This document shows positions 31,542 through 51,623 of a DNA stretch of 64,000 nucleotides, one piece after another; the stretch's first letter is position 1, and every line of letters starts with the position of its first letter. The stretch covers positions 276,713 through 340,712 of the IMG/VR virus record IMGVR_UViG_3300030102_006934; one strand, written 5' to 3'. Below the pieces are notes generated by a model. That model was not told the origin of the DNA. It was given only the letters and a program-made list of their open reading frames with translations, and did no database searches. The position numbers were made by a program, and so were the translations under genes. The DNA comes from a virus.

Positions 31542-31753
31542 TGATAGGTTTAATATTTATAGTAGGTTGTCTTATATCTTCATTGTATGTAACATTTTTT
31601 TTATTTGAAAATCGTGTAGATGAAAAAAATGGGAACAATATTAAAATAGACGATGCTATGGATTATGATGGCCATGGTAATTGGGGTAGATTTCCACCTA
31701 AAAAGATTAAGATTAAAGAGGGTGGTGTAAAAAAAATAAATAAAAACTATTGA
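31541..31753 (+). CDS. Small membrane protein
   Basis: 70 aa from the ATG sharing a base with the previous TGA. N-terminal membrane helix (about 2-22), charged remainder ending KIKIKEGGVKKINKNY. Its end overlaps the -33 element of the next promoter. Confidence 0.5.
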   Translation: MIGLIFIVGCLISSLYVTFFLFENRVDEKNGNNIKIDDAMDYDGHGNWGRFPPKKIKIKEGGVKKINKNY

Positions 31754-31780
31754 CTAATTAAAAAACATTACTTATATTTG
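31750..31780 (+). promoter_or_regulatory. Host-type promoter TTG-N20-TATATTTG for Ro60-like gene
   Basis: TTG 31750-31752 and TATATTTG 31773-31780, exactly 20 nt apart. Start codon 22 nt downstream. Confidence 0.85.
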
Positions 31781-31802
31781 TATAATTAAAAATTTGGAAA
31801 CT

Positions 31803-33221
31803 ATGTCAAAATTAATGGAAGCTTTACAAAGAGAGAACACAACTACTACTAATGGTATGACCACAAGTTCATCATCATTAAATAATTGTGTTAACTTGTT
31901 TTTCTCCATCGGAGCGATGAGAGGGAAGAACAAAAATAGGGTAATTTCTATTTTTTCCAAAGCTTTCAATGAAGATGCTAGAACTGCGATGAGAATTTTA
32001 TTCTGGTCTAGAGATGTTAGGTTTGGAGCAGGTGAAAGACAAATCTTTAGAGATGTGTTATCTTACCTAGTAGAGAACCATACTGAAGTGGTTAAAGCTA
32101 ATCTTGACTTAATTCCAGAGTACGGAAGATGGGATGATGTTCATGGACTAATCGGAACCGATTTAGAAAATGAAGCTATCTCACTTCTTGTATATGGTTT
32201 AAAAGAAGCTAACGGTTTAACAGCTAAATGGATGCCTCGTAAAGGTTTAGTATTTAATAAAGTACGAAAACATTTAAAAGTCACCCCAAAAGAGTTGAGA
32301 AAACTAATAGTTTCACTATCAAACACAGTTGAACAAAAAATGTGTTCAGGTAAGTGGGGAGAAATCGAATACCATAAATCACCATCATTAGCTATGTCTA
32401 GATATAGTAAAGCTTTTGGTAGGAATGATTATGATAGATTCACTGAATTTATACAAAATCTAAAAAAGGGTAAAACCACAGTTAACGCTGGAGCTTTATA
32501 CCCTTATGATATAACTAAAAATGTGTCTTATGGGGACGCTGATTTAGCTAGTGAACAATGGAAAGCTTTACCTAATTGGATGGAGGGTTCAGATGAACTA
32601 ATCCTACCTATGGTTGATGTTTCTGGTTCTATGGGTTGTTCCGCAGGTAACAATAAAAATTTATCTTGTATGGACGTAGCTGTATCATTAGGTTTATATA
32701 TTTCAGAAAGAAACGAGGGAGCTTTTAAGGATATGTTTATGACATTTTCTTCAACACCCAAAGTTCAAACTTTATTGGGTTCATTGAAAGATAGAATGTT
32801 ACAATTAAGTAGAGCTGAGTGGGGGTTCAGTACCAACATCGAAGCTGCTTTTCAAACCATCTTAGACCAAGCTGTTAAATTTAATATACCACAAAATGAA
32901 ATGCCAACCAAGGTATTAATTTTATCGGATATGGAATTTGATTCAGCGGTTAAAGGTAAAGAAATTAACCCTAGTGTTATGACTATGATTGATGAAATGT
33001 ATACCGAAGCTGGTTATACCAGACCTGGTATTATATTTTGGAATATTAATAGTCATGGGGATAACTTCCCAGCTAAGTTTGATGAAATGGGTACCGCTTT
33101 AATTAGTGGTTTTAGCCCAAGTATAATGAAGTCAGTGATTTCAAATCCTAATAGTTTAACACCTATTAATATTATGAATGAAACTGTTAATTCAGAAAGA
33201 TACGAATCGGTAACGATTTAA
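31803..33221 (+). CDS. DUF2828 / Ro60(TROVE)-like protein with vWA domain
   Basis: 472 aa from the ATG at 31803 (an upstream TTG is too close to the promoter). Residues 30-240 form a helical repeat domain with DLIPEYGRWDDV (102-113), KWMPRKG, EQKMCSGKWGEIEYHKSPS (177-195) and VNAGALYPYDI. Residues 266-440 are a vWA domain with MIDAS DVSGSM (D272, S274, S276), LSDMEFD and GIIFWNIN. This is the DUF2828 pattern, the same two-domain plan as Ro60/Rsr, the ring protein that binds Y RNAs. A ~460-nt structured RNA follows at once. RNA binding is inferred. Confidence 0.75.
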   Translation: MSKLMEALQRENTTTTNGMTTSSSSLNNCVNLFFSIGAMRGKNKNRVISIFSKAFNEDARTAMRILFWSRDVRFGAGERQIFRDVLSYLVENHTEVVKANLDLIPEYGRWDDVHGLIGTDLENEAISLLVYGLKEANGLTAKWMPRKGLVFNKVRKHLKVTPKELRKLIVSLSNTVEQKMCSGKWGEIEYHKSPSLAMSRYSKAFGRNDYDRFTEFIQNLKKGKTTVNAGALYPYDITKNVSYGDADLASEQWKALPNWMEGSDELILPMVDVSGSMGCSAGNNKNLSCMDVAVSLGLYISERNEGAFKDMFMTFSSTPKVQTLLGSLKDRMLQLSRAEWGFSTNIEAAFQTILDQAVKFNIPQNEMPTKVLILSDMEFDSAVKGKEINPSVMTMIDEMYTEAGYTRPGIIFWNINSHGDNFPAKFDEMGTALISGFSPSIMKSVISNPNSLTPINIMNETVNSERYESVTI

Positions 33222-33233
33222 GTTCTTTGACAT
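33221..33233 (+). promoter_or_regulatory. boxA-like antitermination element
   Basis: AGTTCTTTGACAT begins at the last base of the Ro60-like stop codon. It resembles the boxA (TTCTTTGA) of rRNA leaders and matches the element before the tRNA-Leu at 42769. Confidence 0.55.
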
Positions 33234-33680
33234 AAAGTATTGTGGTATTAAGGAATAATTGCAGCAATTATCTTTAAACGATCAAATAGAGAAAAGGCTT
33301 TGATAACCTTAAAGGTGGTGATTTATGTCACTACCATATAAAAGAGTCAAACGATTCTGTTACCACAAAACTTTTAGATATAAAACGAATGGATTCTGCA
33401 ACCTATAACTTCAAAAATAGAAACGTAGAATAGAGGTTTTATCCCACCTTTACCCAAAATTTATAAAGGGGGTGACCATAGGTAAGTTTAAACGTAGGAC
33501 AATCCTACACTTGAGGTCGTAAAACATACCTCTTGGATTTGTCTCAAGTAAAATAAAGACATTCAGTGGGGCTGAATTAAAAATCTACCGTATCTACAGT
33601 GGTTACGTGAAAAATAAAAACTGAACACCATTCCGATATCAAAAAACTAGGGGGGGAAATTATTTTCCCCCTTTTTTTTT
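33222..33680 (+). ncRNA. Large structured RNA downstream of Ro60-like gene
   Basis: About 460 nt without a credible reading frame, bounded by boxA and a strong terminator. Domain 1 (33234-33374) is closed by paired ends: AAAGT-A-TTGTGGTA with TACCACAA-A-ACTTT. Inside are a long hairpin (33248-33277), AAGG/CCTT (33294-33310), GGTGGTGA/TCACTACC (33314-33335) and AGAGTC/GATTCT (33343-33358), a cloverleaf-like set; ATCAAA at 33281 can also pair with the loop TTTGAT at 33299. Further hairpins: ATTCTGC/GTAGAAT, GTAGGA/TCCTAC, ACTTGAG/CTCAAGT, ATTCAG/CTGAAT, and GTATC-AGTGGT/ACCATT-GATAT. Paired ends and the GGTGGTGA/TCACTACC helix recall Y RNA. Confidence 0.7.
33652..33680 (+). terminator. Rho-independent terminator of the structured RNA
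   Basis: GGGGGAAA pairs with TTTCCCCC, then T9. Confidence 0.95.
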
Positions 33681-33735
33681 ATAAAGCTTTTTTTATTTTT
33701 AAAAAATAACTATAATTATTTAAAATGTTATAACA

Positions 33736-34518
33736 ATGAAATATTTTTTCGACATAAAAGAGATAGATAAAAATTTAGCAATAGATTTTATACAAGAAAG
33801 ACACTACTCTAAAGTACTACCTAGATTGACTAAACACTGGTTGGGTTGTTTTTACGATGGTGAACTAGTGGGTGTTTTAACTTTAGGTTGGGGTACACAG
33901 CCTTTACAGACAATAAAAAAATTATTCCCTAAGTTGGTATCACAAGATTATTATGAAATCGGTAAAATGTGTATGGATGATAAAATGCCTAGGAACTCAG
34001 AGTCTCAAATGATATCTTCAGTTGTCAGATGGATTAAAATTAATCTACCAGAAAAAAAATTTTTATACACATGGGCTGATGGTATTGTAGGTAAAGTGGG
34101 TTACGTTTATCAAGCTTCAAATTTCATATATGGTGGTTTTATATGGACAGATATCTATATATCTCCGAAAGGTGAAAAAATACACCCTAGAAGTTCTAAG
34201 TCACTACTAAAAGAAAATGCTGATTTTTTGGGTAAAGATAAGTTATTTTGGATGACCCCAGATTTTATGAAAACAAAGGGTATTAGAAGGATAAGGGGTA
34301 AACAATTTAGGTATATTATACCCCTAAGTAAAAGTTCTAAAAAAATATTAAAAAATGGGTCCACTGTCACTTGGGGTATAGAATACCCTAAAGCTAAAGA
34401 TCTATTATGGAAAGAACAAGTTGCTAAAGGTAAATATGATACACTAAAAGAGATACCACAAATGAATTTAAGTGTTGTAGAGATTAATGAAAAAAATGTG
34501 AACGCACATAAGAATTAA
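33736..34518 (+). CDS. Mom-like GNAT-family DNA-modification protein
   Basis: 260 aa. HWLGCFYDGELVGVLTLGWG gives the first strands of a GNAT acyltransferase; YEIGKMCMDDKMPRNSESQM and ADGIVGKVGYVYQASNF match the order of phage Mu Mom, which adds a carbamoylmethyl group to adenine and shields DNA from restriction. A second Mom-like gene follows at 34793. The target base and modification here are unknown. Confidence 0.65.
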   Translation: MKYFFDIKEIDKNLAIDFIQERHYSKVLPRLTKHWLGCFYDGELVGVLTLGWGTQPLQTIKKLFPKLVSQDYYEIGKMCMDDKMPRNSESQMISSVVRWIKINLPEKKFLYTWADGIVGKVGYVYQASNFIYGGFIWTDIYISPKGEKIHPRSSKSLLKENADFLGKDKLFWMTPDFMKTKGIRRIRGKQFRYIIPLSKSSKKILKNGSTVTWGIEYPKAKDLLWKEQVAKGKYDTLKEIPQMNLSVVEINEKNVNAHKN

Positions 34519-34758: not shown

Positions 34759-34766
34759 TATATTTG
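34759..34766 (+). promoter_or_regulatory. Host-type -7 box TATATTTG
   Basis: 27 nt before the ATG at 34793; the -33 region reads TTT rather than TTG. Confidence 0.55.
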
Positions 34767-34792
34767 TGTTATTAAATGTAAAACACAAAAAA

Positions 34793-35554
34793 ATGAAATA
34801 CGATTTAATACAAAAATTTATCAACAGAGAGGTCAAAGCTAAAAGTATTTTTACCATCAAAAAGATAAATAAGAGTGAAGCTTATGACTTTATTAAAAAG
34901 TATCATTATTTAGGTGACGCAAAATTTTTCTCTAAATTTGCGTATGGTTTATTTAGTAGAGAGGATGATGGTCTTATTGGGGTCACCACTTTTTCTAACC
35001 CACAAGGAGCCACAACTATGAAAGGTTGGTTTAACCTAACTAACCAAGATCAATCTGTTTTGGAACTAAGTAGATTGTGTGTTATACCAGAACTAAATGG
35101 GACTAACGCCACATCTTTCTTATTGGGTAATAGTATTAAGATGTTGAAGAAAGAAGGTATAAGATCAGTAATAACTTTAGCTGATAATTCTAGACATAGT
35201 GGCAGTATCTACCAAGTTTGTAACTTCACTTATTTTGGTTTATCTAATAAAAAGAGTGATTTTTTCTTATACAAAGGTGATGGTACCTTTAAGAAAAATT
35301 TTAGAGGTAAAACAAATGATGCACAAGGTGTTTGGTTACCAAGAACCCAAAAACACAGATACGCCTATATTTTAGATAAGACACTACTATGTAATTATGA
35401 ACCTAAACCTTACCCAAAGAAAGAAGACTTTGGTGTGAAAGAATGTACTTGTGATAATAACGTTATCCTTGACAAAAGGTTTAACGTTAAGTATACTTGT
35501 CCCAACTGTACCAATGAGTTGAAATTGGTAGAAGAGGAGAAAGAGTGGTTTTAA
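34793..35554 (+). CDS. Mom-like GNAT-family DNA-modification protein, second copy
   Basis: 253 aa from the ATG at 34793; a GTG at 34766 overlaps the promoter. YDFIKKYHYLGDAKFFSKFAYGLF, GLIGVTTFSNPQG, VLELSRLCVIPELNG and ADNSRHSGSIYQVCNFTYFG follow Mu Mom closely. The C-terminus has a zinc-ribbon-like CTCDNN...CPNC. Divergent from the gene at 33736, so the two probably act on different substrates or as partners. Confidence 0.7.
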   Translation: MKYDLIQKFINREVKAKSIFTIKKINKSEAYDFIKKYHYLGDAKFFSKFAYGLFSREDDGLIGVTTFSNPQGATTMKGWFNLTNQDQSVLELSRLCVIPELNGTNATSFLLGNSIKMLKKEGIRSVITLADNSRHSGSIYQVCNFTYFGLSNKKSDFFLYKGDGTFKKNFRGKTNDAQGVWLPRTQKHRYAYILDKTLLCNYEPKPYPKKEDFGVKECTCDNNVILDKRFNVKYTCPNCTNELKLVEEEKEWF

Positions 35555-41272: not shown

Positions 41273-41344
41273 GGCCCCTTCGTCTAGTGGTTAGGACGCT
41301 AGGTTTTCATCCTAGAAACAGGAGTTCGATTCTCCTAGGGGCTA
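41273..41344 (+). tRNA. tRNA-Glu(TTC)
   Basis: Full cloverleaf: GGCCCCT/AGGGGCT acceptor, anticodon arm CTAGG-TTTTCAT-CCTAG, T arm AGGAG-TTCGATT-CTCCT. No CCA encoded. Confidence 0.95.
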
Positions 41345-41435
41345 CTGAGTAGGTTTTCGGTGTAAAACTCTTCGGAGTACCTAATCAAAATCCAGCCATT
41401 GTTCAGAATGGGAGATTATGAATAAAAACCGAAAC
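41345..41435 (+). ncRNA. Structured spacer between tRNA-Glu and tRNA-Asp
   Basis: TAGGT/ACCTA encloses GTTTT-CGGTGT-AAAAC and ACTC-TTCG-GAGT (a UUCG tetraloop), giving a compact three-way fold. Could be a processing signal or small RNA. Confidence 0.4.
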
Positions 41436-41509
41436 GGTCTGGTAGTTCAGTTGGTTAGAATACCTGCCTGTCACGCAGGGGGTCGCGAGTTCGAGTCTCG
41501 TCCAGACCG
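41436..41509 (+). tRNA. tRNA-Asp(GTC)
   Basis: GGTCTGG/CCAGACC acceptor, anticodon arm CCTGC-CTGTCAC-GCAGG, T loop TTCGAGT. No CCA encoded. Confidence 0.95.
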
Positions 41510-41519
41510 CAAATATTTA

Positions 41520-41604
41520 GGAAGATTGGCAGAGTGGTCGAATGCACTGGTCTTGAAAACCAGCATACCGAGAGGTATCGAAGGTTCGAATCCTTCATCT
41601 TCCG
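41520..41604 (+). tRNA. tRNA-Ser(TGA)
   Basis: GGAAGAT/ATCTTCC acceptor, anticodon arm CTGGT-CTTGAAA-ACCAG, long variable arm ATACCGAGAGGTAT, T loop TTCGAAT. No CCA encoded. Confidence 0.95.
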
Positions 41605-41610
41605 CAAAAT

Positions 41611-41637
41611 AAACCCAAATACTCTTTGGGTTTTTTT
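41611..41637 (+). terminator. Rho-independent terminator after tRNA-Ser
   Basis: AAACCCAAA pairs with TTTGGGTTT, T run follows. Confidence 0.9.
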
Positions 41638-41649
41638 GTTAACCCAAAC

Positions 41650-41659
41650 TATTTATTGT
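41650..41659 (+). promoter_or_regulatory. TATTTATTGT box
   Basis: Variant of the recurrent box directly after a terminator, 2 nt before the ATG at 41662. Confidence 0.45.
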
Positions 41660-41661
41660 TG

Positions 41662-42420
41662 ATGAAACTTTTTGAAGTGTACGAAGATATAGTTATTGAA
41701 AACTCTTGGGGTAAACTAGAGGAAATACTACAATCAGGTTTATTTCAAGAAGAAGGTGACTCTAAATTAAATGAATTACTAGAGAAGTCACAATTGTTAA
41801 TTTTTAAAGCCTTTGACATAAACCCCAAAGAGGGTGGTAAATATTTTGTTTCTGGTTCCGCTAGACTATTTAAAAATCCTAGATTATTGAATGTGTTAAA
41901 CAAACACGATAAATCTTTTGAGTTAGTATTAGGTGATTTAGATGTGGTAATACCTAATCAAGAAAACTGGGAAACATTATACAAAAACTATACAAATACA
42001 AATTCTGAATTTATAAAAGAGTTGTCACAAAAAATAAGTAAATCACCAGAAGATATTAAAAATAAGTTTTTAGAACAAAAGGGTAATTTTACAAAAGGTA
42101 TTTATAGACCTGGTGTTGGCGGTATGGAACTTGTTGATGACGATATGGAAGCTTTTAAAGTTTGGGACCCTAGTAAAGCTAAAGACGCAAAAGACATGTC
42201 TGTTAGGAGCCAAAGTGACATTCTAAAAGACAGTGTTAATATAGGTGGTTATTTTTTTATGAATATAAAAGATGTATTTGATTATAAATCAAAATTGAGT
42301 AGGGAAAAAGAAAAAAACATTGTGGCTTTCTTAAAAGATTATTTAACAGGAGAAGAGTCCCCACAAAGAGCCGAAGAACTTTTCAATAAAATAGGTGAAG
42401 AACTTGGAAAGGATAAATAA
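41662..42420 (+). CDS. Nucleotidyltransferase-like protein
   Basis: 252 aa from the ATG at 41662; upstream in-frame codons lie in the terminator. YFVSGSARLF (about 64-73) and LVLGDLDVVIP (about 93-103) give the G-S and D-x-D elements of a nucleotidyltransferase fold, but the third acid is not clear. Acidic C-terminus. Could be an NTase-fold packaged protein or toxin/antitoxin-like factor; call is tentative. Confidence 0.45.
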   Translation: MKLFEVYEDIVIENSWGKLEEILQSGLFQEEGDSKLNELLEKSQLLIFKAFDINPKEGGKYFVSGSARLFKNPRLLNVLNKHDKSFELVLGDLDVVIPNQENWETLYKNYTNTNSEFIKELSQKISKSPEDIKNKFLEQKGNFTKGIYRPGVGGMELVDDDMEAFKVWDPSKAKDAKDMSVRSQSDILKDSVNIGGYFFMNIKDVFDYKSKLSREKEKNIVAFLKDYLTGEESPQRAEELFNKIGEELGKDK

Positions 42421-42438
42421 TTTAACTATCTTTACACA

Positions 42439-42726
42439 ATGAAAGGTAAAGAATACTTTAATAGGTTCACGGAAGATGAAAAAGTGGTTTGGTTAAAAAA
42501 TTTCCACAAGTTTGGTTTTAATGATTTTAAGTCTTCAGAACAAGTAATGAAAACTGAATTTAAAAACTACTTTCAGTTTTTTTTCGGTATATTCCCAATA
42601 GAAAAAACTGAAGAAGGTTATAGTTATTGGTCAAACCTTTTCCACAAATATAGAGAATACGATAAGTTAACTATTAAAATTGGTCATAATTTTAAGAGTT
42701 ATGTAACTGAACCAAAAATTTTTTAG
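42439..42726 (+). CDS. Hypothetical protein
   Basis: 95 aa, aromatic and Lys-rich, no motif recognised. A TATCTTTA box at 42427-42434 may be its promoter. Last gene before the second RNA cluster. Confidence 0.45.
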   Translation: MKGKEYFNRFTEDEKVVWLKNFHKFGFNDFKSSEQVMKTEFKNYFQFFFGIFPIEKTEEGYSYWSNLFHKYREYDKLTIKIGHNFKSYVTEPKIF

Positions 42727-42733
42727 AAATAGG

Positions 42734-42764
42734 TTGTTATATTAAAAAGTTTTATTTATATTTG
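42734..42764 (+). promoter_or_regulatory. Host-type promoter TTG-N20-TATATTTG for RNA cluster
   Basis: TTG 42734-42736 and TATATTTG 42757-42764, exact 20-nt spacing, 21 nt before the tRNA-Leu 5' end. Confidence 0.85.
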
Positions 42765-42768
42765 TATC

Positions 42769-42784
42769 AGTTCTTTGAAAATAT
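42769..42784 (+). promoter_or_regulatory. boxA-like antitermination element
   Basis: AGTTCTTTGAAAATAT just after the predicted transcription start; very close to the boxA of rRNA leaders. A related AGTTATTTGAAATAT precedes the tmRNA. Confidence 0.6.
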
Positions 42785-43040
42785 GACCGTGTGGCGGAAT
42801 TGGTAGACGCTTACAAGAAAAACTAAAACTATGGTAAAACTTGGTTTATATGTTTCCCTCTCACCCTTGTGTTGGTGAAAAAACATATAAGTATAATATA
42901 ATATAATAATAACAACTAAAAGATTACTAACGCGTTAGTTGAAACAAATTATAATATGATAAATAATAAAGAAAAATCCAGTTGTTTTAGTTTGATTGTA
43001 TGAACGAAAGTTCGTGAAGGTTCGAATCCTTCCATGGTCA
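42785..43040 (+). tRNA. tRNA-Leu interrupted in the anticodon arm
   Basis: Ends are a normal class II tRNA-Leu: GACCGTG/CATGGTC acceptor, GCGGAATTGGTAGACGC D arm, GAAC-GAAA-GTTC variable arm, GAAGG-TTCGAAT-CCTTC T arm. The anticodon stem TACAA (42812-42816) and TTGTA (42996-43000) are separated by 179 nt where 7 are expected. The insert begins and ends with AAACTAAAAC / GTTTTAGTTT (10 bp), stacked on the stem through GAA/GA, and contains further hairpins (TTATATGTTT/AAACATATAA; CAACTAA/TTAGTTG). The anticodon cannot be assigned. Confidence 0.75.
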
Positions 43041-43045
43041 CAATA

Positions 43046-43129
43046 GGGTGGTAGATAAAATAGTAAAAAATCAATAATGCACCGAAAGGGGGAAATTCAA
43101 TTTAGCATAAAAATCAATTACAACCACCC
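43046..43129 (+). ncRNA. tRNA-like RNA without T arm
   Basis: 84 nt closed by GGGTGGT/ACCACCC, the size and end pairing of a tRNA, but with no TTCGA loop or recognisable anticodon arm. Inside ATGC/GCAT closes a hairpin with CC-GAAA-GG. Lies between tRNA-Leu and tRNA-Met in the same operon. Could be a decayed tRNA or a tRNA mimic. Confidence 0.5.
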
Positions 43130-43138
43130 ACAGTTTTA

Positions 43139-43212
43139 GGACTTTTAGCTCAGTTGGTTAGAGCACTTGACTCATAATCAAGGGGTCGTAGGTTCGAGCC
43201 CTACATGGTCCA
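43139..43212 (+). tRNA. tRNA-Met(CAT)
   Basis: GGACTTT/ATGGTCC acceptor (one T-T mismatch), anticodon arm CTTGA-CTCATAA-TCAAG, T arm GTAGG-TTCGAGC-CCTAC. Looks like elongator Met; Ile with modified C34 cannot be excluded. No CCA encoded. Confidence 0.9.
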
Positions 43213-43221
43213 CGTTAATTA

Positions 43222-43305
43222 GCTCGGGTGGCGGAATAGGTAGACGCGTCAGACTTAAAATCTGATTCCCAGTTGGGAGTGAGGGTTCGATTCCCTCTCC
43301 GAGTA
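43222..43305 (+). tRNA. tRNA-Leu(TAA)
   Basis: GCTCGGG/TCCGAGT acceptor, anticodon arm TCAGA-CTTAAAA-TCTGA, long variable arm, T arm GAGGG-TTCGATT-CCCTC. No CCA encoded. Confidence 0.95.
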
Positions 43306-43524
43306 CTAGAGAGAGTGATGGGTACTCTCGGTGTTAGTAGAGGTCACGAAACTCTACCCCAAAAGCCTACGCGCGGGAAGAGCGAGGTATGTGGATACAC
43401 GGATGGGTCATCCCCCTACCCCCACATCAAGGATTGACTTTTTTATGTGGTAAGACACTAATGAGTATTTTGAATAGGAAAAGAACGTTAAAATCTAGTA
43501 CACTAAACCCTAGTGTACGCATTT
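43306..43524 (+). ncRNA. GC-rich structured RNA between tRNA-Leu and tRNA-Arg
   Basis: 219 nt, noncoding, richer in G+C than its surroundings. Hairpins: GAGAGT/ACTCTC (43311-43329), GTAGAG/CTCTAC (43337-43357), CCT-CGC/GCG-AGG (43366-43387), GGATG/CATCC (43401-43413) inside ATGTGG/CCACAT (43389-43427), and a perfect GTACACTA/TAGTGTAC (43498-43518). CCACAT can pair either with ATGTGG at 43389 or with a second ATGTGG at 43445. No RNase P, 6S or SRP motif recognised. Confidence 0.6.
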
Positions 43525-43598
43525 GGATGGGTAGCTCAGCTGGATAGAGCATCTGCCTTCTAAGCAGACGGTCGCAGGTTCGAATCCTGCCCCGTTCA
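43525..43598 (+). tRNA. tRNA-Arg(TCT)
   Basis: GGATGGG/CCCGTTC acceptor, anticodon arm TCTGC-CTTCTAA-GCAGA, T arm GCAGG-TTCGAAT-CCTGC. No CCA encoded. Confidence 0.95.
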
Positions 43599-43603
43599 CT
43601 ATT

Positions 43604-43632
43604 AAAACCTCGACATTAGTTGGGGTTTTTTA
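43604..43632 (+). terminator. Rho-independent terminator of RNA cluster
   Basis: AAAACCTCGAC pairs with GTTGGGGTTTT across ATTA, T run follows. Confidence 0.85.
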
Positions 43633-43662
43633 TTGCCAATTAAAATAGGTTACCTACCTTTG
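43633..43662 (+). promoter_or_regulatory. Host-type promoter TTG-N19-TACCTTTG
   Basis: TTG 43633-43635 and TACCTTTG 43655-43662, 17 nt before the CCA-enzyme start. Confidence 0.75.
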
Positions 43663-43679
43663 TTCTAAACAAATAAGTT

Positions 43680-44420
43680 ATGTTAAATATATTTGAGGTT
43701 GGTGGATGTGTTAGAGATGAAATTCTAGGTGTAAGTACCAACGACATCGATTTTACTTTTGTTATAGAAGATACCAACCAAACAGTGGATGAGGGTTGGG
43801 ATCAAATGTTATCTCACCTAAAAGAGGCTGGGTTTAAAATATTTTTAGAAACAAAAGAATGTTTTACTGTTAGAGCTAAATTCCCCAAAAACCATATTAA
43901 TGAAGGATTAGTGGCTGACTTTGTTATGGCTAGGAAAGAAGTTGGTTACATTGATGGTACTAGGAAACCTATTTTAGAACTAGGTACACTGTTAGATGAC
44001 TTAGTTAGAAGAGATTTTACAATCAATGCTTTAGCAAAAGATATGGACGGTAATATTATAGACCCCTTCGGTGGTGTAAAACATCTTAAAGAAGGTATCC
44101 TAATAACACCTCTAGATTCAAGAAAAACCATGATGGACGACCCACTTAGAATATTAAGAGCTTTAAGATTTTCTATCACAAAAGGTTTTGAGGTATCTGA
44201 AGACATTATGGAAGCTATGAAGCAACCAAACATTTTAGAGAAATTAAAAACAACAGTTAGCCAAGAAAGAATTAGAGAAGAGTTGACTAAGATGATGAAA
44301 TTCGATACAATTAAAACAATGAAACTACTAGTTAATATTGATAACGAGTTTATTCATGGGTTTTTAAATATCATTTTTGAAAAAGACATGTGGTTAAACC
44401 CAACTACCAAAAACAAGTAA
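43680..44420 (+). CDS. tRNA CCA-adding enzyme (class II nucleotidyltransferase), short form
   Basis: 246 aa. FEVGGCVRDEILG and NDIDFTFV (D22, D24) form the active site; LVRRDFTINALAKD, DPFGGVKHL and DPLRILRALRFSI are the following conserved blocks that read the incoming nucleotide. The usual C-terminal body and tail domains (to about 400 aa) are mostly missing. Adds or repairs the 3' CCA. None of the eight phage tRNAs encodes CCA, so this enzyme would complete them. It is next to the RNA cluster with its own promoter. Confidence 0.85.
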   Translation: MLNIFEVGGCVRDEILGVSTNDIDFTFVIEDTNQTVDEGWDQMLSHLKEAGFKIFLETKECFTVRAKFPKNHINEGLVADFVMARKEVGYIDGTRKPILELGTLLDDLVRRDFTINALAKDMDGNIIDPFGGVKHLKEGILITPLDSRKTMMDDPLRILRALRFSITKGFEVSEDIMEAMKQPNILEKLKTTVSQERIREELTKMMKFDTIKTMKLLVNIDNEFIHGFLNIIFEKDMWLNPTTKNK

Positions 44421-44437
44421 ATTAAAAAACAAAAAAA

Positions 44438-44692
44438 ATGAATTTATTAAATAATATCGTAGATTATTACGAAGAAGAGGAAATATTAAAGGCAGATGGT
44501 TTCGATGAGGCGGTTATTGGTATAGAAGAAGGTACCATGAGATTGATTTATTCAGTTACTAAGTGTATTGAAATACTAATGACTGAAGATGATATGTCTA
44601 TGGAAGATGCTATGGAACATTTTAGATATAATGTTAGTGGTGCTTATGTTGGTAAAAAAACACCTATATGGTCAGAGGATATGTTTTATTAA
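44438..44692 (+). CDS. Small acidic protein
   Basis: 84 aa, acidic, helical (YYEEEEILKADGFDEAVIGIEEGTMRLIYS; MTEDDMSMEDAMEHF). Follows the CCA enzyme by 17 nt. Not recognised. Confidence 0.5.
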   Translation: MNLLNNIVDYYEEEEILKADGFDEAVIGIEEGTMRLIYSVTKCIEILMTEDDMSMEDAMEHFRYNVSGAYVGKKTPIWSEDMFY

Positions 44693-44694
44693 CA

Positions 44695-44704
44695 TATTTA
44701 TATA
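44695..44704 (+). promoter_or_regulatory. TATTTATATA box
   Basis: Recurrent box upstream of the 20-residue reading frame and tRNA-Ala. Confidence 0.35.
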
Positions 44705-44749
44705 GTAGTAAAATAACTTTTACATAATTTGTTTTTTTATATAGAAATA

Positions 44750-44812
44750 ATGTACAATATTTTTGAACCAGAGAACATTCATGACGAGGATGACGAGTTA
44801 GATATTTTCTAG
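44750..44812 (+). CDS. Possible 20-aa acidic peptide
   Basis: ATG to TAG, strongly acidic (HDEDDELDIF). Fills part of a 270-nt interval and ends just before a TATTTATTAG box. Could be real or chance. Confidence 0.25.
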   Translation: MYNIFEPENIHDEDDELDIF

Positions 44813-44814
44813 TA

Positions 44815-44824
44815 TATTTATTAG
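44815..44824 (+). promoter_or_regulatory. TATTTATTAG box before tRNA-Ala
   Basis: Ends 5 nt before the mature tRNA 5' end. A translation signal makes no sense here, so this copy supports a promoter role for the box. Confidence 0.55.
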
Positions 44825-44829
44825 AAAAT

Positions 44830-44903
44830 GGGGGATTAGCTCAGCTGGCTAGAGCACCTGCCTTGCACGCAGGGGGTCATCGGTTCGACTCCGATATCCT
44901 CCA
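44830..44903 (+). tRNA. tRNA-Ala(TGC)
   Basis: GGGGGAT/ATCCTCC acceptor, anticodon arm CCTGC-CTTGCAC-GCAGG, T arm ATCGG-TTCGACT-CCGAT. No CCA encoded. Confidence 0.95.
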
Positions 44904-44952
44904 CAATAAAATTGTTTTTACTCACCACTATCACTTATTAACTATCTTACTA

Positions 44953-51226: not shown

Positions 51227-51623
51227 GGGGGTATTCTGGATTTGACTTGCAGTAATCAAGATTGGTGTAAGCATGTCGTGAAATGATACTATCACGTAAA
51301 TCTGTGTATTACAACTCTTAAATGGCAACATTTTAGAAAACGCAACAGTAGGTCATTTTGTGGCTGAAGATGCAGCTGTAGTAGCCTAATTAGATTAGGA
51401 CTAACTACCCATCACAACTAAGACTCCGATATTAGAGTATGTGATGTCAACGAATCGGAAACAGACTTAGTATGGTATAGTAGCCAAGTCGAACTACTAT
51501 CAATGTTGTTGAACACTGTAAAAAAATCAACTATTTTGGTAAGTTAGAAAACTTAATCCTAAACATGTAGAAGACCGTTAAGATGCGGTAAGGACATGGG
51601 TTCGACTCCCATTACCTCCACCA
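51227..51623 (+). ncRNA. ssrA: tmRNA
   Basis: 397 nt. The tRNA half pairs GGGGGTA with TACCTCC, has ATGGG-TTCGACT-CCCAT as T arm and encodes the final CCA, which the tRNAs here do not. 5' end reads GGGGGTATTCTGGATTTGAC as in bacterial tmRNAs. The reading frame for the tag starts at GGC (51324) and ends at TAA 51387-51389, giving 21 residues that end AEDAAVVA instead of the usual ALAA. Rescues stalled ribosomes with tagged degradation. Confidence 0.95.

Follow-up and report, generated by a model that had tools for sequence, protein, structure and literature searches.

The closest described counterpart of the system considered here is the bacterial Ro60 protein Rsr with its YrlA or Y RNA (RF02553; D. 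radiodurans, Salmonella), in which a protein built of a Ro-fold ring and a von Willebrand factor A (vWA) domain is paired with an RNA composed of a helix and an insert. Long structured noncoding RNAs in phages are represented by GOLLD and ROOL, which are often found near tRNAs. Phage homologues of the protein studied here are collected in PHROG 850 as 'Ro-like RNA binding protein', and putative Y RNAs have been located by the gene or by tRNAs in mycobacteriophages and in Listeria phage CKA15. In the Listeria phage study, Y RNAs were proposed beside a DUF2828 homologue, CKA15_055, which was detected in particles after purification; unannotated regions with high transcription were reported within 2 kb upstream of CKA15_055 (PMC12282133). 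The present analysis concerns a 64-kb stretch (the window; positions 276,713 to 340,712) of the 380,343-bp virus record IMGVR_UViG_3300030102_006934, in which a DUF2828 gene is directly followed by a large structured RNA. Quite probably, the product of this giant-phage gene is a Ro60-type ring protein, and the RNA is its dedicated, modular Y-like partner.

The open reading frame (ORF) 31803-33221 matches the Pfam families PF11443 (DUF2828; 2e-33) and PF25043 (DUF7788/vWA; 7e-44) as well as PHROG 850 'RNA-binding protein' (5e-144). Its 472-amino acid product, encoded by window positions 31803-33218, is composed of a HEAT-like helical ring and a vWA domain with a metal-ion-dependent adhesion site, the residues of which (D272xSxS, T344, and D376) are invariant columns in alignment A2. 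The AlphaFold2 model, built with 27 sequences, has a mean predicted local distance difference test score (pLDDT) of 80. The top two Foldseek matches in the PDB are a TROVE protein (9kop; E 7e-9, template modelling score 0.56) and Rsr of D. radiodurans (2nvo; E 8e-6), both of which cover the whole chain, while the next matches are mostly to vWA domains alone. Because the two best matches are TROVE/Rsr structures, the DUF2828 protein is predicted by its fold to work like a Ro60 protein, though it is no Pfam TROVE member: the Pfam matches of the window protein are confined to DUF2828, DUF7788, and a weak VWA_2, without any TROVE match, and the A2 profile reaches TROVE chains weakly (E 0.08). The first-pass annotation of this DNA, made from the sequence alone, had taken the protein to be Ro-like and part of a candidate phage ribonucleoprotein system. 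The structural matches agree with the Ro-like assignment, and the system proves to be widespread in phages: homologues of the protein occur in 681 GenBank phage records, and in 665 of these they span 80% or more of its length. None of 198 Bacteroidota genomes passed the DUF2828 cut-off.

Following the stop codon, boxA starts at 33222, and no ORF of 50 amino acids is present in 33222-33735. Between boxA and a terminator lies a noncoding RNA of ~430 nucleotides (nt), for which neither an Rfam identity nor DNA similarity to GenBank phages was found. Covariation in its relatives indicates that the structure is real. Compensatory changes are present in 20 of 29 predicted pairs of domain 1 (7.0 when shuffled, 2-5 when slid) and in 17 of 33 predicted pairs of domain 2 (7.9 when shuffled, 1-5 when slid); the helix closing domain 1 (A4 helix 1) shows them in 5 of 7 pairs, and in the type A payload domain they affect the A3 helices 2, 3, 4, 5, 7, and 8. 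Close relatives (~72-78% protein identity) retain a noncoding gap of 520-640 nt with long conserved blocks. When IMG/VR was scanned with an 18-mer contained in the RNA only, 58 stretches were retrieved; every stretch with a real RNA relative, as judged by profile search, has a DUF2828 gene directly upstream, and the remaining ones are chance words, without gene and without RNA relative. The covariation, together with the strict adjacency and the co-inheritance described below, bears out the earlier proposal of a dedicated structured RNA beside the protein. GOLLD and ROOL share with the window RNA its being a long structured phage noncoding RNA, but the window RNA differs by the lack of an Rfam match, by its dedicated Ro-type protein gene, and by its module architecture.

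In the regions downstream of distant relatives of the gene, an element recurs that consists of [AAG], a variable helix of 5-7 bp, the single-stranded core UUACAGCAA, a variable loop, the other strand of the helix, and UG. Two such modules are seen in the window RNA. Module 1 reads AAG-GGAAT..UUGCAGCAA..AUUCU-GUU and is nested in the outer helix GTGGTA/TACCAC, its core TTGCAGCAA being invariant in the family; module 2 reads GAATGG-AUUCUGCAA..CCATTC-CGA and holds the payload domain inside. The module density beside the gene is 0.66/kb, compared with 0.034/kb in shuffled sequence (a 19-fold excess) and 0.019/kb in the antisense strand. Without requiring a helix beforehand, a perfect 6-bp partner was found in the cores' own sequence for 105 of 170 cores, with 48 different helices among them; upon permutation of the arms between loci (500 permutations), 5.3 cores on average and 14 at most had a partner, and in the antisense control it was 3 of 57. 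A module or a typed RNA accompanies DUF2828 at 79 of 82 distinct phage loci, the exceptions being L040, L055 (contig end), and L146 (an Erwinia phage with modules elsewhere in its genome).

A covariance model of the module, R1, matches in all 16 DUF2828-containing phage genomes searched (best E 1.6e-8 to 0.054; 14 below 0.01), ten of which had contributed no training sequence. In the six of these 16 genomes that were picked afterwards and gave no training sequence, modules adjoin the gene throughout. In W21 no module was seen by the helix scan, and R1 matches just downstream of the gene. Nothing below E 0.07 was obtained in seven phages devoid of DUF2828 (T4, phiKZ, K, SPO1, P-SSM2, rV5, and G). 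The hosts covered are Listeria, Staphylococcus, Enterococcus, Campylobacter, Vibrio, Aeromonas, Escherichia, Mycobacterium, Sinorhizobium, Erwinia, Fusobacterium, and Synechococcus, and the same module is found beside Ro proteins of only 29-48% identity.

With regard to what is inserted into the module loop, three kinds of RNA can be distinguished. The first has no payload; its modules of ~60 nt often follow one another in a row, as with the three next to the gene in Listeria phage A511 and Staphylococcus phage CF1 and the ~8 in Aeromonas phage 4_4572. The second has as its insert a permuted tRNA of the kind known from YrlA (mycobacteriophage Crossroads, where it occupies one of three modules, and an Erwinia phage). 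The third contains a large structured domain, either of type A, as in the window (20 loci), or of type B (22 loci), neither of which belongs to an Rfam family. The RNA type tracks the protein tree, with 7 changes as opposed to 35 after shuffling, a figure to which near-copies contribute. In A511, the modules occupy a stretch immediately upstream of the gene that is also conserved in CKA15. Long unannotated noncoding stretches were also noticed between the tRNA genes of A511 (L139; 2110-2731, 4040-4378, and 4453-5112); they contain no clear modules, two have strong TTGACA promoters, and they are candidates for the highly transcribed CKA15 RNAs. In KVP40 (L149) and the Erwinia phage (L156), tRNA genes carry an insert in place of the anticodon region, that of L156 containing a helix and ACAGCA. 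In KVP40 (L137; 2961-3010) and in L138, a short module covers the DUF2828 start codon, which suggests autoregulation.

Within the genome under study, a paralogue of the protein with 58% identity is encoded at 75494-76942 of the virus record and has its own RNA of ~170 nt, and a free-standing two-module RNA is found at 84644-84771, 224 kb from the window gene and far from both genes, which argues that the RNA can act in trans. At 84644-84880 (L281 1140-1380), this RNA appears to be equipped with its own promoter and terminator. These arrangements bear on the question of whether the RNA is a 3' untranslated region or a cis element through which the protein controls its own mRNA, and not a stable partner RNA, with the KVP40-type modules serving as translational operators. 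Such an explanation would be in keeping with the position of the window RNA directly 3' of the gene, without a gap, and with the ATG of the gene lying within the 3' helix arm in KVP40 and Vibrio phage 1.081. It is nonetheless unlikely, considering that modules occur within tRNA arrays too and, in one instance, form a unit of their own at a great distance from the gene, that their position ranges from upstream to downstream of the gene, and that a long noncoding transcript framed by boxA and terminator contains large payloads conserved in structure.

The transcription signals of the locus, as read from the sequence, follow the order given in the first-pass annotation, namely, a host-type promoter, the gene, boxA without a spacer, the noncoding RNA, and the terminator (Table 1). 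The paralogue is preceded by a near-identical promoter (L082, about 1443-1475). Of 69 loci, 20 have the boxA word GTTCTTTGA at a distance of 26-42 nt ahead of the first RNA core, where about 0.3 would be expected, and three of the five Bacteroidota genomes examined carry it in their 16S leader. In L018, L019, L021, and L024, gene and RNA are separated by a small ORF, and boxA still stands immediately ahead of the RNA, in keeping with antitermination over a long untranslated transcript as its putative function. Promoter and boxA style would point to a Bacteroidota host.

Table 1: Features of the DUF2828 locus and its RNA, in window coordinates.
Feature	Position	Strand	Basis
Bacteroidota-type promoter, TTGACT (31750) ... 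TATATTTG (31773)	31750-31780	+	Sequence
DUF2828/DUF7788 Ro60-like protein gene	31803-33221	+	Pfam, PHROG, AlphaFold2, Foldseek, invariant A2 columns
boxA GTTCTTTGA, rRNA-type antitermination signal	33222-33230	+	20/69 loci vs ~0.3 expected; host rRNA leaders
RNA domain 1, closed by GTGGTA (33242-33247)/TACCAC (33361-33366)	33242-33366	+	A4 helix 1
Module 1: AAG, helix GGAAT (33252-33256)/ATTCT (33354-33358), core TTGCAGCAA (33259-33267), end TGTT	33250-33361	+	
Arm GGTGGTGA/TCACTACC of the first-pass annotation	33314-33335	+	Kept only in window and L014
Module 2: helix GAATGG (33387-33392)/CCATTC (33628-33633), core ATTCTGCAA (33393-33401), end CGA	33387-33636	+	
Type A payload domain, ~226 nt	33402-33627	+	Conserved covarying helices, invariant loops (A3)
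Intrinsic terminator GGGGGGAAATTATTTTCCCCC, then T run	33650-33681	+	Sequence

Several points weigh against a Ro60-type protein with a dedicated modular RNA. Both window modules are variants, helix 1 having 5 bp with a G-U pair and core 2 reading CUGCAA. The score that R1 gives to the window RNA is low (15.9 bits, E 0.24), because the long inserts and the variant cores fall outside the model; the evidence for the window modules is their family-wide conservation and not this score. The A1 module sequences were picked for complementarity, a bias which the permutation test and the fresh genomes avoid, and the counts overstate the evidence somewhat, since related loci are not independent. Finally, the large payloads match no known RNA, and binding of the RNA by the protein is inferred. 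From the last two points it might be argued that the Ro-like protein has another partner and that the downstream RNA, with a type A payload resembling nothing known, is an independent large noncoding RNA and a mere neighbour. In the light of the genome-level co-occurrence, the strict adjacency, the co-inheritance, and the sharing of one module by such divergent Ro proteins, this is very improbable.

In comparison with YrlA and Y RNAs, the window RNA shares the location beside a Ro-family gene and the modular build of a putative binding helix plus insert, and some phage modules carry the permuted tRNA of YrlA (Crossroads, Erwinia phage). Different from the Rsr/YrlA system, the phage protein is a DUF2828 and not a Pfam TROVE protein by sequence, and the window RNA is far larger and contains no tRNA-like domain. 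Even with the threshold relaxed to E<=10, the window RNA gave no Y_RNA or YrlA match, and no YrlA was found in the 380-kb genome. The tRNA-likeness formerly ascribed to the RNA is not supported, there being no tRNA or YrlA match, and the arm GGTGGTGA/TCACTACC, which had been likened to the Ro-binding helix of Y RNAs, was rejected as Ro site, as it is kept in the window and L014 only and other relatives hold a different arm at this position. Of the ~80 YrlA-like loci from bacteria that were looked at, most have a different lower stem in common, for example, GGCGAAUGCCG..GGAACUACA / GUUUCC..UUGUCGCC, and, with about three exceptions, the loci have no CAGCAA nearby; as a rule, the phage module is missing from cellular YrlA. 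Phage DUF2828 proteins, therefore, appear to possess a recognition element of their own. TROVE in vaults (Swarozyc/TEP1) was also considered and has no bearing on the phage RNAs.

In the neighbourhood, two Mom-like DNA modification genes are located directly 3' of the RNA (33736-34518 and 34766-35554). Seven tRNA genes are found at 41273-44904, among them an ORF (43680-44417) for a PolyA_pol-head nucleotidyltransferase of the CCA-adding type. A phage-encoded transfer-messenger RNA (tmRNA) is present at 51227-51623 (RF00023, 106.7 bits), as also at locus L044, and ORF 50472-51176 matches the eukaryotic-type phosphomannomutase PF03332 (8e-31).

According to the proposed mechanism, the protein would read a modular site, that is, A-A-G and then a helix of 5-7 bp of free sequence, whose 5' strand is followed by single-stranded UUACAGCAA and whose 3' strand is followed by UG(A/U). 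Phages either line up one to ~8 modules or place a payload in the loop of a module, the choice being nothing, a permuted tRNA of the YrlA type, or a structured domain of 200-300 nt (type A here, type B elsewhere). A single transcript started at the host-type promoter would supply both the mRNA and the ~430-nt RNA, with the host rRNA-type boxA shielding it from early termination; having two modules, the RNA could hold two Ro rings together with the structured payload. By analogy to bacterial Rsr/Y RNA, the ribonucleoprotein would capture 3'-tailed or damaged structured RNAs, pass these on to a nuclease, a ligase, or another factor, and spare or sort phage tRNA, tmRNA, and mRNA during infection. 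RNA quality control is probably its role; these RNA-handling steps rest on Rsr/Y RNA biology and on the window context of seven tRNAs, tmRNA, and CCA-adding-type enzyme. A variant of this scheme, possible but rather doubtful, is an anti-defence particle, in which the Ro ring, loaded with phage RNA by the modules, would sequester, or help to repair, tRNAs cut by anticodon nucleases of the host. It draws on the same window context, on the tRNA splicing ligase and RNA ligase encoded beside the gene in A511, and on the placing of Ro/TROVE with RNA repair in jumbo phages (PMC7824862), but the ORFs scanned in the vicinity of the window gene include no ligase, and with identical anatomy it would refine rather than replace the pairing of a Ro60-type protein with its modular RNA.

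An RNA resembling the phage modules is the Class I RNA (RF01414), described to have an AAG start, a 6-bp helix with compensatory changes, an 11-nt motif, and a CUGU end, and said to be restricted to dictyostelids (PMC7919456). The Rfam search places the phage module on this family, again so in L143; RF01414 is the best of all Rfam families in 64 kb of other loci, and ~15 of 23 whole-genome matches coincide with independently found modules, although no match reaches the Rfam cut-off of 41.5 bits (best score, 28.7 bits). A match in T4 (E 0.0024) lies within an ORF and was discounted as chance. Common to both are the AAG start, a variable terminal helix of ~6 bp, single-stranded UUACAGCAA after the 5' arm, a variable loop, and the CUGU end; many phage modules possess these features, with the two window copies being variants. 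Phage modules closely match the Class I description point by point, except that the Class I consensus has an extra base separating the helix from CAGCAA. Further differences are that Class I RNAs are eukaryotic, small (42-65 nt), under their own promoter type, and reported to bind the RRM protein Rnp1A. Shared ancestry, transfer, or convergence on a common protein family may each account for the likeness. With slightly more doubt than confidence, it is suggested that the phage Ro-module RNAs and the Class I RNAs constitute one RNA family bound by one DUF2828 Ro-like family in phages and social amoebae. As to the novelty claimed in the first-pass annotation, phage Ro proteins and phage Y RNAs had already been described, while no report of the shared module, the large payloads, or the Class I match was found in the literature searched, the coverage of which is incomplete.

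The findings provide one sequence-and-structure rule by which RNA partners of phage Ro-like proteins can be found across the GenBank phage records encoding them, and bring to light large RNA domains outside Rfam. For Class I RNA, an abundant class of developmental RNAs of unexplained origin and mechanism, they also predict a partner as well as an evolutionary link, so that both its partner and its origin are now open to test by standard pull-downs. If the proposed relationship is true, Class I RNAs would be analogues of Y RNAs, and the most elaborate members of the family, with payloads of up to 300 nt, would be those of phages.
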